From assembly GCF_027944115.1 (NCBI RefSeq), contig NZ_JAPJZI010000001.1, positions 1,116,001 to 1,180,000 of the forward strand: 64,000 bases of DNA, given 5' to 3'. Of the stretch, positions 25,848 through 47,884 are shown in pieces (positions within the stretch are counted from its first letter, which is position 1; every line of letters begins with the position of its first letter). The translations under genes were made by a program, and so were the position numbers. The notes beneath the pieces are model-generated. The model saw nothing but the letters and a program-made list of their open reading frames with translations. It had not been told where the DNA came from and ran no database searches. The DNA is from Hoeflea prorocentri (lineage in GTDB: Bacteria; Pseudomonadota; Alphaproteobacteria; Rhizobiales; Rhizobiaceae).

Positions 25848-26231
25848 ATGACGTTGTATATTGTATGGGCACTGATCGGCCTGCAGGTCAAGCACTACAT
25901 TGCAGACTATACGCTCCAGTGGCCGTCCATGATCGCCGGAAAATGCGACCTGAAAAAAGCGGGTGGATACACGCACGCCGCTATCCATGTGGCGATGACC
26001 TTGCCGATCCTTCTGCTGTGCGGGCTGTCGCTGGCCACGATTGCGGCTTTGGCTGTATTTGAATTCGTCGTCCACTATGCGACGGACTACGCCAAGGGCT
26101 GGTACGATTGCAAACACAAGCTTGATGTGAACACCCGCCATTTCTGGGCTGTGCACGGCGCGGATCAACTGGTCCATCAGTTGACCTACGCGATCATCCT
26201 GGCAGTGATCATGATGTCGATGCGGGTTTGA
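25848..26231 (+). CDS. DUF3307 domain membrane protein
   Basis: The 127-residue protein matches DUF3307: LQVKHYIADYTLQ near the N-terminus, a GGYTHAAIHVAMT helix, FEFVVHYATDYAKGWYDCK and the C-terminal FWAVHGADQLVHQLTYAIILAV. Three to four membrane helices carry conserved His and Asp residues, including HYIAD, HYATD and HGADQ, a pattern that suggests metal or quinone contact, though no function is established. It is a single gene, convergent with the cyclic-nucleotide-binding gene 22 bases away. Confidence 0.78.
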   Translation: MTLYIVWALIGLQVKHYIADYTLQWPSMIAGKCDLKKAGGYTHAAIHVAMTLPILLLCGLSLATIAALAVFEFVVHYATDYAKGWYDCKHKLDVNTRHFWAVHGADQLVHQLTYAIILAVIMMSMRV

Positions 26232-26253: not shown

Positions 26254-26715
26254 TCAACCGCTGGCGCGCTGATCCAGAACATGGGCAAGATCCGATGTCG
26301 TGTTGGCAAGCCTGCGGGCAAGTTCCCTGATGACTTCGACGGCGACATCGGGAAACTCGCCGATGAGTTCCATAAGGTTCTCGCGCTTGAGTTCCAGCAG
26401 GGTGAGTTGCCCGCGCGCCTTGACGGATGCCGTTCGCGGTACGTCGCAGAAAGCCGATATCTCTCCAAAAAGCGCGTTTGAACCGAGTTTTGCAACGACA
26501 ACCTGGGTGTCCCCGCTGTCTGACAGAATATCCGCCTCGCCGCTGGCGATCAGATAGGCCGACGTGCCGTTTGATCCCTGCGCGAAAACCTCTTCACCGT
26601 CATCGAAGACGAGCTGGGTGGACGTATAGGCAATCAGCTTGAGTTTGCTTGGGTCGACGCTCTCAAAAAGCGGCACCTTCTGCAGCATGGCGACATCATC
26701 ATCAAGCGTGCTCAT
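26254..26715 (-). CDS. Stand-alone cyclic nucleotide-binding domain protein
   Basis: The 153-residue protein is essentially one cNMP-binding barrel. The phosphate-binding cassette reads FGEISAFCDVPRTASVKA (about residues 91-108), with the Glu, Arg and Thr-Ala expected for real cAMP or cGMP binding. No DNA-binding, kinase or channel domain follows. AGGAGA precedes the ATG. It lies 41 bases downstream of the large ABC-transporter-like gene on the same strand, so the two are probably co-transcribed, and the cNMP domain may act as a trans regulatory subunit. That role is inference. Confidence 0.85.
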   Translation of the reverse strand: MSTLDDDVAMLQKVPLFESVDPSKLKLIAYTSTQLVFDDGEEVFAQGSNGTSAYLIASGEADILSDSGDTQVVVAKLGSNALFGEISAFCDVPRTASVKARGQLTLLELKRENLMELIGEFPDVAVEVIRELARRLANTTSDLAHVLDQRASG

Positions 26716-26756: not shown

Positions 26757-29606
26757 TCAATTGGCCATCGCTTCAAGGCGCTCGGAAACCTTTTCCGGCG
26801 CTCCTTGGGACACAATCCGTCCGTGCTCCATCAAGAGTATTCTGTCGAAATCGTCCCAGCCGCCATTGTCTAGCGGTACACAGATGACACCCATATTGCG
26901 GGTGCCGTCCTGTTTGCCCATTTCCACAATGGTGTGGACAATTCTCATCCGTTCCCCGGCTTCAAGTGCCGAGAGCGCCCGGTTAAGAATAACAATGTCG
27001 GGCTGTTTCAACAACGCGCGCACCAGTTTCAGTTTCTGAGCCTGATTGCTAGAAAGATTGCGTCCGCCGTTGCCGATGTCGAATGACAGGCCGACATGGA
27101 AGACCGTGTCCGCAACTCCGCAACTCTCAAGCAGTGTCTTGATGGATTTCAGTACACGCTCGCGCGCGCCGATGCGGCGTGAATCGATCCGGCCGAAAAG
27201 GATATTGTCCAGGACGGACAGGGAAGGGTTGAAGCGGTCGGGATCGTGGAAAGCGACCGCATCGTTTTCCTGTTTGTCCAGCTCTTCGCGCAGCGTCTTG
27301 CGCGCCGCCAGAAACTGGTCCTGCAATTGCTGATCGACCAATCCGAAACGCGTCTGGGCCTCGCAGTAGTCGAAGGCCAGATCCAACATGGCTTCCAAAT
27401 CGGCCTCGCTGGCATCGGACATCTTTTTGCCGGAGAGTTTTTCCAGGGCGAGTTTCATTTCCTGAAGGCGTTCAGGCGAGGGGCCGCCCGAGCGCTGCAA
27501 CAGCGTGCTGTCTTCTGCCAGATCGCCGAACAGTTCGACATTGTTGCGTGCAATCTCAAGGCCGATGTCAAAGAGGCGCGACAGAAGCCCCATTTCATTC
27601 AAAAGTTTTCTGACCATCCGGTTTGCCGGCAAGCCTTCCTGGCTGAAGGACTCGTCCACGGATGTGCCGAAAATCAGGTTCTCGCCTATGGTCAGTTGAT
27701 GGCTGTATTTTTCGGGATCGAACAGCTCGACAGCACCCCTGGAGCTTTCCCCCGATTGATTGTCAGCAAACTGGCGTCTTGCCTCCATGATGCCCGAGAT
27801 CACCGTCTCGTCCGCGTTTGCCTCGAGCCGGCGCAGCAGCCCGTATTCGAGGACGTCTTCATAAAGGTCGACGCTGTGCATGATTGAAAGCAAACGGTCG
27901 GCGATCTCACCGGTCGGCCACTCCACATTCACTTCTGCCCCGAAGCTCGGATCCTTCACTTCGCCGGCTTTTGCCGATATCGGTTCGTTTTCATAGGGGC
28001 TGAATGCCGCTCCCGATCCGTCTTCCCCAAGGATCGGCGGTGCATCGCCGGTAAAGGGCAGGGTCTCTGCGAGGGCGGAACGAAGGCTGCCCCCTGCAAA
28101 GAAGATATTGCTGTCGGCATAGCCGATGCGCTGGCCCGTCTGCCTTTCAGGTACGGATCTCAGATCCTCTCCGTCGAGGGTGATGTGACCCGAACTTGTG
28201 ACCAGGAGCCTTGCCAGAACCTCGGCGACATATTCGGCACCTGAATCGGCATTGCCGACAATCGCGAGTGCTTCGTTGCGCGAAATCGAATTGGTGAAAT
28301 CCTGGATCACGGGCTGCTCCTGGGAATCCAGAACGGTCACGTGATCCAGTTCAAACCCGTCCCTTATCGGATCGGCCGGTTTGTCGCCGGGCTCCTGACG
28401 GGCTCCTGGCATAATCGGCGTGTTGGCAAAATCCTCAACGGCCTGTTCGTAGCGAATCTGGTTCAACAGGCGTTGCTGGTCCCAGTCGATGATGCCTTTG
28501 ATCGGGGAGGGCAGGTCCTTATAGGCGGCGATGGAGGCGACGAGCGCGCCTAGATCCATGCGGCCGGTGATAACCAGGTAGCCGCCCAGAAGATAGAAGA
28601 TGAAGGCCAGGAACTGGATCAGGAAATTGTTGAGGAACTTGACCTGGAACTTACGCTGATAGAGCTCGAAACGGATGACCACAATGCGCCGGAGCATCTG
28701 CCAGATGTTGGAACGTGCGCGGTTTGAGGTGCCGTGCAGGTGGACATCGTCCATGCCTTGTACGAATTCACCGATCCTGCCGGACAGTTTACGTGCCGTT
28801 TGCTGGCGCTGGCGTCCGAGTTCCAGCAGCCGGCGGCGAAGCCGCGGGATGATCCATGCCTGAAAGAGGACGATCACCAGGGTAATAACCCCGAACATGG
28901 TGTTTTGCAGGAACAGGAAGGTCAGGCCTGTCAGTGCTTGCGCACCGAGAAACACCGGGGCCGAGAACGCATCGCCGAAAAACTGCCCGAGCGGCTCGAC
29001 TTCGTCCTTGATGACACTGGTTATCTCCGAAGGCTTGACGCTTCGCGCCTTTGCGATGGGATAACGCAGGACACGGTCGAACAGTTCGTAGCGCAGGCGA
29101 CGCAGGAGTTTTTCGCCAAGCTTGCCCTTGTAGGTGTTGATGTAGAGCTTGAACCAGCCGTTGAGGGCAACGGCGACCAGAAAGCCCAGCGCCAACGCGA
29201 TGAGCATTTGCTGGCGGTCGAGTTGCAATCCGCCGAAGAGATTTATCGTCTGCCCGAAAAGCGTATCGGCAAAGGGCAGATCGATGGACAGGAAAGGCTG
29301 TGTTGCCTGGGGCGAATCAAAACCGTCTCCCTGAATCGGGCCATTGACGATGAGCTTTGGCAACTGAAGCATCTGAAAATAGACCGGCATGGAGACCAGG
29401 ACCACGACAAAGATCCAGACCTGCTGCTTGCGCGAGTGATCCCAGATGTATCGAAGAAGATTACGCTGCAAGGTTGTCCTCAGTTGCGTGGCACGGCCGC
29501 CGCCCCGGATTGCCCGATGGAACAGCGCCTGAACCCTTGACCGAAGGCATGACCAAGTCAAGACGGGCTGCCAAAGGGTCGGGTCCAAAATAACCGTTAT
29601 CGGCAT
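26757..29606 (-). CDS. ABC-exporter-like protein with degenerate, duplicated nucleotide-binding domain
   Basis: The product is about 949 residues. The N-terminal half is an ABC exporter membrane domain with hydrophobic segments near residues 63-80, 134-152, 219-253 and 328-346. The C-terminal ATPase domain has lost its catalytic residues: the Walker A position reads GNADSGAEY (no Lys, near 451), the signature is NLSSNQ (near 850), Walker B is VILNRALSAL (no Asp-Glu, near 872) and the H-loop His is absent (VICVPLDNG). About 270 extra residues lie between Walker A and signature, including two copies of a D-P-x-x-[YF]...N-[IL]-[LI]-F-G segment. Start uncertain: ATG 29606, or a TTG at 29471 behind GAGGA. 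Likely a non-hydrolysing relative paired with the adjacent cNMP protein. Confidence 0.8.
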   Translation of the reverse strand: MPITVILDPTLWQPVLTWSCLRSRVQALFHRAIRGGGRATQLRTTLQRNLLRYIWDHSRKQQVWIFVVVLVSMPVYFQMLQLPKLIVNGPIQGDGFDSPQATQPFLSIDLPFADTLFGQTINLFGGLQLDRQQMLIALALGFLVAVALNGWFKLYINTYKGKLGEKLLRRLRYELFDRVLRYPIAKARSVKPSEITSVIKDEVEPLGQFFGDAFSAPVFLGAQALTGLTFLFLQNTMFGVITLVIVLFQAWIIPRLRRRLLELGRQRQQTARKLSGRIGEFVQGMDDVHLHGTSNRARSNIWQMLRRIVVIRFELYQRKFQVKFLNNFLIQFLAFIFYLLGGYLVITGRMDLGALVASIAAYKDLPSPIKGIIDWDQQRLLNQIRYEQAVEDFANTPIMPGARQEPGDKPADPIRDGFELDHVTVLDSQEQPVIQDFTNSISRNEALAIVGNADSGAEYVAEVLARLLVTSSGHITLDGEDLRSVPERQTGQRIGYADSNIFFAGGSLRSALAETLPFTGDAPPILGEDGSGAAFSPYENEPISAKAGEVKDPSFGAEVNVEWPTGEIADRLLSIMHSVDLYEDVLEYGLLRRLEANADETVISGIMEARRQFADNQSGESSRGAVELFDPEKYSHQLTIGENLIFGTSVDESFSQEGLPANRMVRKLLNEMGLLSRLFDIGLEIARNNVELFGDLAEDSTLLQRSGGPSPERLQEMKLALEKLSGKKMSDASEADLEAMLDLAFDYCEAQTRFGLVDQQLQDQFLAARKTLREELDKQENDAVAFHDPDRFNPSLSVLDNILFGRIDSRRIGARERVLKSIKTLLESCGVADTVFHVGLSFDIGNGGRNLSSNQAQKLKLVRALLKQPDIVILNRALSALEAGERMRIVHTIVEMGKQDGTRNMGVICVPLDNGGWDDFDRILLMEHGRIVSQGAPEKVSERLEAMAN

Positions 29607-29765
29607 TTTTTTACCCGGTTTCCCTCGGCCTTGCAAAACAAACCGTTGGCTCAATTGGCGGCGGCGGTGGATGCGCGCGGCGTTCGCACGGGGTTCTTGT
29701 CGTTCGGACAGTTTTGGACGCATAGTCAGCCGACAACATCAAACAGTATTGGCAGGTTGAATCTT

Positions 29766-46228: not shown

Positions 46229-47884
46229 ATGAATACATCCGCCGAGAATGCCGGAAGCGCAGGCAAAGGAAGCCTGCCTTTGTCTGAAAACTCGAATGTG
46301 TTCGACAGAAGCAGCCGCCTCTTGCTTGAAAAGCCATACTGGATCGCCGTGGCCGTCGTGCTGGCGCTTATTCTCCTGCCGGTCGCCGTTTGGCTTGATC
46401 TCAGGCATCTGTCCAATGAGTCATTGATGCGACAGGCAAATGATCTCAATGCCGTCATATCAGAGATCCGCAGCTACTATGCCAGAAACGTTGTGGGACG
46501 CATTCAGCAAAACGGTGGCGAAACCACCATTGCTCACAATTACGAAGAGATTGACGGTGGCGTTCCCATTCCCGCGACGCTGTCGATTGAACTTGGAGCG
46601 ATCGTCGGCACCAAGGGAGACAATATTCGTTATCGATTTGTGTCAGATGAGGTGTTTGAACGCCGGACGAGGCAAAGGCTTGACGCATTTGAAGCAGCGG
46701 CGCTGTCTTCGTTTCGTGAGGCGCACGCATCCGAAGGTGATACAGTTACCGAGATTTCCGGTTCACTGCTTGAGCGGCAGATCCGAATAGCGGTGCCTGT
46801 CATTATGGGGCAATCGTGTGTCACCTGCCACAACGGCCATCCCGAAAGCCCCAGAAAGGACTGGAAGGTCGGCGACGTTCGCGGCATTCAGGCGATTACG
46901 GTCGTTCAGCCGCTGGCCACAAATCTGTTCTCTTTTAAATATCTGCTCGCCTACCTGCTTGGGGCCGGTTTCGTGGGTATCGCCTTCATCGCGCTGCAAT
47001 GGCGACAAGGCAAACAATTCCTGATCGTCAATAACGAACTGGAAGAGGCAAATTCCTTTCTGGCGTCCGTCTCCCTGAAAATATCAAAGTATTTGTCGCC
47101 ACAAGTCTACAAGTCGATTTTCAGCGGTGAACGCGATGCCGTCATTTCGACTGAGCGCAAGAAACTGACGATCTTCTTTTCCGATATCAAGGATTTCACG
47201 GTGACAACCGAGCGATTGCAGCCGGAAGAACTCACCCGTCTCCTCAATGAGTATTTTACCGAAATGACCAGCATCGCCCAGGCGCATGGAGCAACGGTCG
47301 ACAAATTCATCGGTGATGCGATCCTTGCCTTTTTCGGAGACCCTGAAACGAAAGGCGCGGCTGAAGATGCACGGGCCTGTTTGAATATGGCCATCGCAAT
47401 GCAGCGACGCATGGCCGAGCTTTGCCAGGAATGGCGCAAGCGTGGGATCGAAAATCCTTTTCAGGTGCGCATGGGTATCAATACCGGCTATTGCAATGTC
47501 GGAAATTTCGGCAGTGAAGACCGCATGGACTATACAATCATCGGAGCGGAGGCGAACCTTGCCGCGCGGCTTCAGTCGATTGCGGAACCCGGAGGTATTG
47601 TCCTGAGCTACGAGACATTCGCGCTCGTCGACGACATGGTGCGCGCCCGTCCGCTGGAGCCGATTACGCTGAAGGGCATCAGCCGCAAAGTTGTGCCTTA
47701 CGCGGTTGTAGACGTTCCTTCTGCAGAAACGAAACAGCAAGTGCTTGAGGAAAATACCGGACGGTTTCATCTCCGTGTGAATTTCGACGGAATGGAACTC
47801 AATGAAGAACGGCAGATCGAGGCGGCTTTGAAATCGGCCCTAGACCAGCTCAGGAGACGACGTCCGCAATCGGGTTCAGCATAA
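46229..47884 (+). CDS. Adenylate cyclase with periplasmic DUF3365 (Tll0287-like) haem-motif domain
   Basis: The 551-residue protein has a first helix at residues 37-57, a periplasmic domain of the DUF3365 type with one haem-binding motif CVTCH at 197-201 (followed by NGHPESP), a second helix near 238-257 and a C-terminal class III cyclase domain. Metal ligands Asp319 (FFSDIKDF) and Asp363 (KFIGDAILAFFGDP), Lys359 and the later DYTIIGAEANLAARLQ with Asn and Arg point to ATP as substrate. The ATG at 46229 is used; TTG 46196 is an alternative. The gene is divergent from nnrS, suggesting that redox state or NO is turned into cAMP. Confidence 0.9.
   Translation: MNTSAENAGSAGKGSLPLSENSNVFDRSSRLLLEKPYWIAVAVVLALILLPVAVWLDLRHLSNESLMRQANDLNAVISEIRSYYARNVVGRIQQNGGETTIAHNYEEIDGGVPIPATLSIELGAIVGTKGDNIRYRFVSDEVFERRTRQRLDAFEAAALSSFREAHASEGDTVTEISGSLLERQIRIAVPVIMGQSCVTCHNGHPESPRKDWKVGDVRGIQAITVVQPLATNLFSFKYLLAYLLGAGFVGIAFIALQWRQGKQFLIVNNELEEANSFLASVSLKISKYLSPQVYKSIFSGERDAVISTERKKLTIFFSDIKDFTVTTERLQPEELTRLLNEYFTEMTSIAQAHGATVDKFIGDAILAFFGDPETKGAAEDARACLNMAIAMQRRMAELCQEWRKRGIENPFQVRMGINTGYCNVGNFGSEDRMDYTIIGAEANLAARLQSIAEPGGIVLSYETFALVDDMVRARPLEPITLKGISRKVVPYAVVDVPSAETKQQVLEENTGRFHLRVNFDGMELNEERQIEAALKSALDQLRRRRPQSGSA

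Follow-up and report, generated by a model that had tools for sequence, protein, structure and literature searches.

A conserved alphaproteobacterial family of ABC exporter homologues with degenerate ATPase motifs, an enlarged cassette and a linked cyclic-nucleotide-binding protein

What does an ATP-binding cassette (ABC) exporter do once the residues that define its motor are gone? The question is raised by a gene on the reverse strand of a 64,000-nucleotide stretch of the Hoeflea prorocentri genome (hereafter the window; positions 1,116,001 to 1,180,000 of contig NZ_JAPJZI010000001.1), which codes for an exporter homologue whose classical ATPase motifs are all degenerate and whose nucleotide-binding domain (NBD) contains a large insertion. 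A preliminary description, made from the letters alone, had left three possibilities: a partner for another ATPase, a nucleotide sensor, or a protein that works without ATP turnover. We find that the gene belongs to a family of pseudo-ABC exporters conserved in the Alphaproteobacteria, and is thus more than a product of local decay. The last of the three possibilities is the best supported, since the full set of ATPase residues is found in none of 172 distinct family sequences, the gene is under purifying selection, and relatives exist that possess the transmembrane domain (TMD) and no NBD.

In Pfam the window protein matches ABC_membrane (E 1.5e-17) and, in two separated pieces, ABC_tran (E 3.4e-10), in agreement with its first description as an ABC exporter homologue, and structural matches indicate that the NBD fold is retained; the cut-off was reached by none of 25 listed NCBIfam families (of 145). 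With an ABC_membrane TMD joined to an ABC cassette fold, it belongs in fold and in descent to the type IV ABC exporters, yet it lacks the ATPase motifs by which such exporters are defined. Where Walker A would read GxxGxGK[ST] the protein has GNADSGAE, without the Lys; N and R stand at the positions of the Walker B Asp and the catalytic Glu; LSSNQ takes the place of LSGGQ; and the H-loop stretch reads VICVPLDNG, with no His. All four losses had been described before and were borne out by translation. In what follows, domains are numbered along the 904 residues counted from a TTG codon, while the motif positions 451, 851 and 872 and the positions of the repeats are counted from the ATG at 29606.

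26757..29471, reverse strand: pseudo-ABC exporter gene, 904 aa from TTG (first read from the ATG at 29606).
29477..29481, reverse strand: GAGGA, Shine-Dalgarno-like, 5 nt before the TTG at 29471 (read from the sequence).
28422..29471, reverse strand: TMD, residues 1-350 of 904 (PF00664, E 1.5e-17; structure model); the best conserved region in same-genus comparisons.
28230..28256, reverse strand: degenerate Walker A GNADSGAEY, residue 451 (translation, family alignment).
27042..27056, reverse strand: degenerate signature LSSNQ, residue 851 (translation, family alignment).
26964..26993, reverse strand: degenerate Walker B VILNRALSAL, residue 872 (translation, family alignment).

The frame is open from 26757 to 29723, and the ATG at 29606 had been used for the earlier numbering. 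The TTG at 29471 is probably the true start, because GAGGA lies five bases upstream and the N-terminus shared by relatives, M[EQ]xxL..YIW, falls there in the alignment; the 45 N-terminal residues counted from the ATG are probably untranslated.

Conservation of the motif losses among homologues, proposed earlier as a check, was assessed in an alignment whose 174 rows, two of them duplicates, represent 172 distinct sequences; the frames, each 780 aa or longer, had been picked by a profile of the insert. Seven motif checks were read from fixed columns, so that a few cells may be out of register. No sequence combines Lys, Ser/Thr, signature, Asp and Glu. None of the seven checks is passed by 99 sequences, one by 29, two by 20, three by 12, four by nine and five by three. 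The Walker A Lys is kept in 35 sequences, three of which also have the Ser/Thr, and Asn occupies the Walker B Asp position in 137 of the 174 rows. The erosion varies by branch, yet the set is complete in no sequence.

Relatives are widespread within the class. At E<=1e-40 they were found in 30 of 61 genomes (that of the window and 60 relatives), and a profile of the insert alone matched 131 of 385 sampled alphaproteobacterial genomes at E<=1e-15, so that the insertion, too, is conserved in homologues. In a draw from the phylum the same profile and threshold yielded 31 of 398 genomes, all 31 from the same class. A scan of named genomes returned at least 554 stretches encoding relatives, of which the best 80 were kept; outside the class, among the matches listed, the module was borne by one named genome, that of the gammaproteobacterium Plasticicumulans lactativorans (L084), suggesting horizontal transfer. 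Since relatives align along their full length in one frame, there is no need to invoke a sequencing frameshift, which had been named as a possible source of the altered motifs. Three genomes of the window's genus (L038, L039 and L040) also have a more distantly related second copy, to whose C-terminal side a cyclic-nucleotide-binding (CNB) domain is fused. Five sequences (L197-L200 and L202) combine the same cassette and insert with a divergent N-terminal membrane part and have no CNB neighbour; genome G586 bears one such divergent copy (L199) and one normal copy (L216).

Selection was estimated as the ratio of nonsynonymous to synonymous substitution (dN/dS). Against L009 the window gene gave 0.05 for the TMD, 0.06 for the N-terminal part of the NBD, 0.14 for the insert and 0.09 for the C-terminal part, values that are rough because dS exceeds 1; four other comparisons gave up to 0.30 or were saturated. 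The gene is thus under purifying selection. Between the window genome and G007 the pseudo-ABC protein is 92.0% identical in the TMD, 76.4% and 84.6% in the N- and C-terminal parts of the NBD and 68.3% in the insert, while a canonical exporter shows 84.9% in its TMD and 84.1% in its NBD. The pseudo-ABC TMD is more conserved than every part of the NBD in all four genome pairs; for the one canonical exporter that served as control, the excess of TMD over NBD never went beyond 0.8 points in the same comparisons. Constraint sits on the membrane part.

The enlargement of the cassette can be read from the distance between Walker A and signature, which is 400 residues in the window protein and 98-109 in six canonical ABC reads of the window genome, all with GK[ST], LSGGQ and DE (L004 and L006 are one gene, and L008 is a 356-aa ABC frame; the Walker A pattern failed to pick up a seventh locus, L007, which has GKS, LSGGQ and DE). 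There are therefore about 290-300 extra residues; the preliminary description had placed them correctly and put their number, too low, at about 270.

27258..28064, reverse strand: inserted stretch, residues 470-738, with 474-519 at low confidence (alignments, insert profile, structure model).
27285..27719, reverse strand: probable extra copy of the ABC helical subdomain, residues 585-729.
27666..27719, reverse strand: repeat segment 1, DPEKYSHQLTIGENLIFG (profile comparison, pattern match).
27192..27245, reverse strand: repeat segment 2, DPDRFNPSLSVLDNILFG (profile comparison, pattern match).

The two like segments reported earlier are real, with a correction to their spacing: the pattern D-P-[ED]-[KR]-[YF]-x3-L... 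has exactly two matches, at 630-647 and 788-805, and the version with x4 matches nowhere in the window protein. The proposed duplication of helical-subdomain material is supported as well, as profiles of the repeats match one another (E 1.5e-13 for copies 2 and 3, 8e-8 for 1 and 2, and 2e-7 for 1 and 3; nominal values, with no shuffled control).

A second consistent feature of the family is a CNB protein encoded next to the pseudo-ABC gene.

26254..26715, reverse strand: CNB protein, 153 aa (PF00027, E 4.9e-17), 41 nt downstream of the pseudo-ABC gene, with AGGAG before its ATG.

In all 80 of the best named loci the gene immediately downstream, in the same orientation, encodes a CNB. Of the 172 distinct sequences, 148 have it as an adjacent gene and 17 as a fusion on the C-terminal side; in two it is located elsewhere, and in five it is absent from the examined stretch. 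The window's CNB protein has the Gly-Glu ... Arg-x-Ala cassette, residues that in the CNB fold hold the cyclic phosphate and ribose, and across 152 distinct CNB sequences the Gly is found in 152, the Glu in 144 (with Asp in six), the Arg in 151 and the Ala in 149. With a cassette so nearly invariant, the cyclic-nucleotide site has been kept while the neighbouring ATP site was lost. The ligand, judged from the cassette and from cyclase neighbours alone, would be cAMP or cGMP. The earlier idea of a nucleotide sensor thus survives as regards sensing, and the sensor is more likely to be this separate downstream protein than the pseudo-ABC protein itself. A small DUF3307 protein (25848-26231) is encoded convergently with the window's CNB gene.

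Neighbouring genes were counted at 89 distinct loci, each spanning 16 kb or more and the window being one of them (94 before duplicates were removed). Of these, 57 have one or more of three glycosyltransferases, 36 an MBL-fold hydrolase, 20 a class III cyclase and 15 DUF3095 near the module (for example L228:14028-15191); a polysaccharide deacetylase and a UDP-sugar dehydrogenase, queries both named from annotation, the former with no Pfam match at E<=0.001, occur in 29 and 16. Among 132 sequences searched, duplicates included, 26 had a cyclase match, of which 20 and 17 show by pattern the two cyclase Asp motifs. In L128 the order along one strand is MBL, two cyclases (the first read from its sequence, the second matching the cyclase query), pseudo-ABC, CNB. 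L128, L131 and L136 each have a cyclase match as the next gene upstream in the same orientation, and in L074 and L078 the match is divergent. Annotated plasmids of Rhizobium, Mesorhizobium, Shinella, Sinorhizobium and Sulfitobacter have glycosyltransferases beside the module. In 19 control loci around NBD-less genes (226,734 bases), shorter stretches selected with a different aim, there were no cyclase, MBL or CNB matches, and glycosyltransferases only in L269. One of the window genome's 20 class III nucleotidyl cyclase matches lies within the window at 47153-47701, in a 564-aa frame.

The NBD-less relatives are TMD-only proteins of about 390-500 aa on Roseobacter and Azospirillum plasmids; P0002 and P0003 have no cassette by Pfam at E<=1. 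Genes of this kind were examined at 22 loci, one of the genes being broken by a stop and another sitting close to the end of a contig. None has a cassette gene as its neighbour; five of the loci contain cassette-like frames, of which the nearest lies some 1.1 kb away on the opposite strand. The family TMD profile gives these relatives 72-313 bits and two ordinary members 508 and 591, and of 13 canonical ABC frames it found five at all, at no more than 16.7 bits. As the 172 sequences had been picked by their insert, it is the TMD-profile searches that test for insertion-free relatives; among the matches listed, they returned no homologue in the lineage with intact motifs and no insertion, the case that would have pointed to decay. 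Group I (seven loci) is found mostly in copper-resistance loci, with a multicopper-oxidase cluster (annotation names) in five, and for group II, with 14 loci in the tree, no conserved neighbour was recognised. In L269 a 345-aa NBD-less protein is encoded divergently from a gene whose product is 38.7% identical to the first glycosyltransferase, and a counterpart of the second (43.1%) lies alongside. TMD-only proteins in copper-resistance loci include L232:7773-9266, L233:7770-9029 and L234:5776-6957; those of L233 and L234 are annotated 'ABC transporter ATP-binding protein', and no cassette was found in either.

On balance, we lean towards a protein with the exporter fold that does its work without hydrolysing ATP, under cyclic-nucleotide control through its CNB partner and with a probable role related to glycans. 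The type IV exporter TMD would be the working membrane part, and the NBD, its fold kept and its ATP chemistry lost, would have been enlarged by tandem copying of helical-subdomain material and would probably serve as a platform for coupling and docking. The CNB protein, fused on the C-terminal side in some lineages, may dock on this NBD, and cyclic-nucleotide binding could then set the conformation that ATP binding switches in a normal exporter. Substrate might move passively or be powered by an ion gradient, by analogy with SbmA, and the substrate could be a glycan or lipid-linked glycan, because the module lies near glycosyltransferases in most loci seen. More tentatively, we propose a cyclic-nucleotide-gated pseudo-ABC transporter, in which cyclic-nucleotide binding by a docked CNB protein would have replaced the binding and hydrolysis of ATP as the switch of the TMD; the NBD-less members suggest that the TMD may be active by itself.

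Several observations weigh against this picture. The window locus has none of ten neighbour types besides the CNB gene, and neither it nor an annotated Ruegeria plasmid locus has such a cyclase or glycosyltransferase, so the argument from context covers only part of the family; glycosyltransferases are also absent from seven checked loci of the window's genus with an ordinary module. With 20 class III cyclase matches in the window genome, the chance of finding one within 18 kb is about 7%; the shorter length and different selection of the 19 control loci are a further caution. The five divergent relatives (L197-L200, L202) lack a CNB gene, and in the two that were tested the TMD was not found by the family profile; conversely, a CNB-domain gene lies some 5 kb from the NBD-less gene on the L234 plasmid. 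Two quick trees place NBD-less group I differently and do not agree on an order of NBD loss. The CNB domain of the exporter HetC is reported to bind ppGpp and not cAMP (PMC10986499). Finally, a few members keep several motifs (L176 retains Lys, LSAAQ, DE and H, and L193-L195 retain GKS and DE with no signature), and some branches may therefore retain residual ATP binding.

The strongest alternative, though an unlikely one, is a membrane receptor or scaffold without transport, in which the exporter fold relays a cyclic-nucleotide signal through the membrane or along it, for instance to glycosyltransferases. SUR is an exporter fold used as a regulator, and SUR2 is among the structural matches; the loss of ATP chemistry and the linkage to CNB and cyclase genes would suit such a role. 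The TMD is the best conserved part of the protein, however, and TMD relatives stand alone without an NBD, with no CNB match in 19 of 19 control loci, a pattern that fits a membrane activity of its own.

An NBD that binds ATP or another nucleotide without hydrolysing it, and so gates the TMD as a ligand-gated channel, is improbable: the Walker A Lys of 35 sequences and the GKS and DE of L193-L195 would allow it, but Lys, Ser/Thr, Asp, Glu and His are all missing from the window protein and 99 sequences pass none of the seven checks. Quite improbable, too, is a heteromeric ABC exporter in which this protein supplies the degenerate half and a gene elsewhere in the genome the catalytic one, even though heterodimeric exporters with one degenerate half are known and the NBD fold is kept here. 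With Walker A and signature both gone, neither composite ATP site would be complete; a full-length exporter of canonical type lies near the module in just one of the 94 loci, the other 93 having no linked partner; and NBD-less relatives exist. The earlier option of a partner for another ATPase is accordingly disfavoured, though an unlinked partner might exist. Degenerate sites in ABC transporters have been reviewed (PMC7756269). A pseudogene or decaying gene, for which the degeneration of every classical motif might speak, is hardly credible, contradicted as it already is by full-length frames across the class, dN/dS of 0.05-0.14 against the nearest relative and the conserved CNB gene directly downstream.

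If a signal-gated pseudo-ABC transporter is the correct reading, the family would form a branch of the ABC exporters that does without ATP and is distinct from SbmA/BacA, and would show how the exporter fold can run on another input. ABC exporters are textbook ATP motors, and an enlarged, motor-dead cassette paired with a second-messenger sensor would allow the cassette's non-ATP role to be probed along a natural series of intact motor, dead motor with sensor, and no motor. Members on plasmids are annotated 'ABC transporter ATP-binding protein', 'ABC transporter transmembrane domain-containing protein' or 'ATP-binding cassette domain-containing protein', and are therefore likely to have been counted among ATP-driven pumps; no published description of the pseudo-ABC/CNB family was found in open-licence papers.

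Compared with type IV ABC exporters such as PCAT1/ComA, MsbA and TmrAB, the family differs in never having the complete ATPase set, in its extra residues with repeated helical-subdomain segments, and in its CNB neighbour or fusion (165 of 172). CFTR (ABCC7) is comparable in description: it, too, has the exporter fold, a degenerate ATP site and an inserted regulatory region, and a cyclic nucleotide acts upstream in its control. CFTR, however, keeps one working ATP site and is controlled through phosphorylation by a kinase. HetC is a type IV exporter with an N-terminal CNB domain, a C39 peptidase and an essential ATPase residue (PMC10986499), and resembles the module in linking a CNB domain to such an exporter; here, in contrast, the CNB is downstream or C-terminal, Pfam finds no peptidase and the ATPase motifs are degenerate. 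SbmA is driven by protons and probably arose from an ABC transporter's TMD (PMC13316013), so that the SbmA/BacA (SLiPT) secondary peptide transporters offer the parallel of an exporter-fold TMD working without ATP. The window protein differs from them in keeping a dead NBD and the insert. Pfam, which presumably contains SbmA/BacA-type families, gave no match to them at E<=1 for P0001, P0002, P0003 or P0004 (the window protein and the NBD-less relatives tested), and no test places the family in SbmA/BacA. The closest parallel to the NBD-less relatives is LmrA-MD, an engineered LmrA without its NBD whose membrane domain is reported to act as a secondary translocator (PMC6155054); LmrA-MD is a laboratory truncation, whereas the NBD-less relatives of the pseudo-ABC family are natural.
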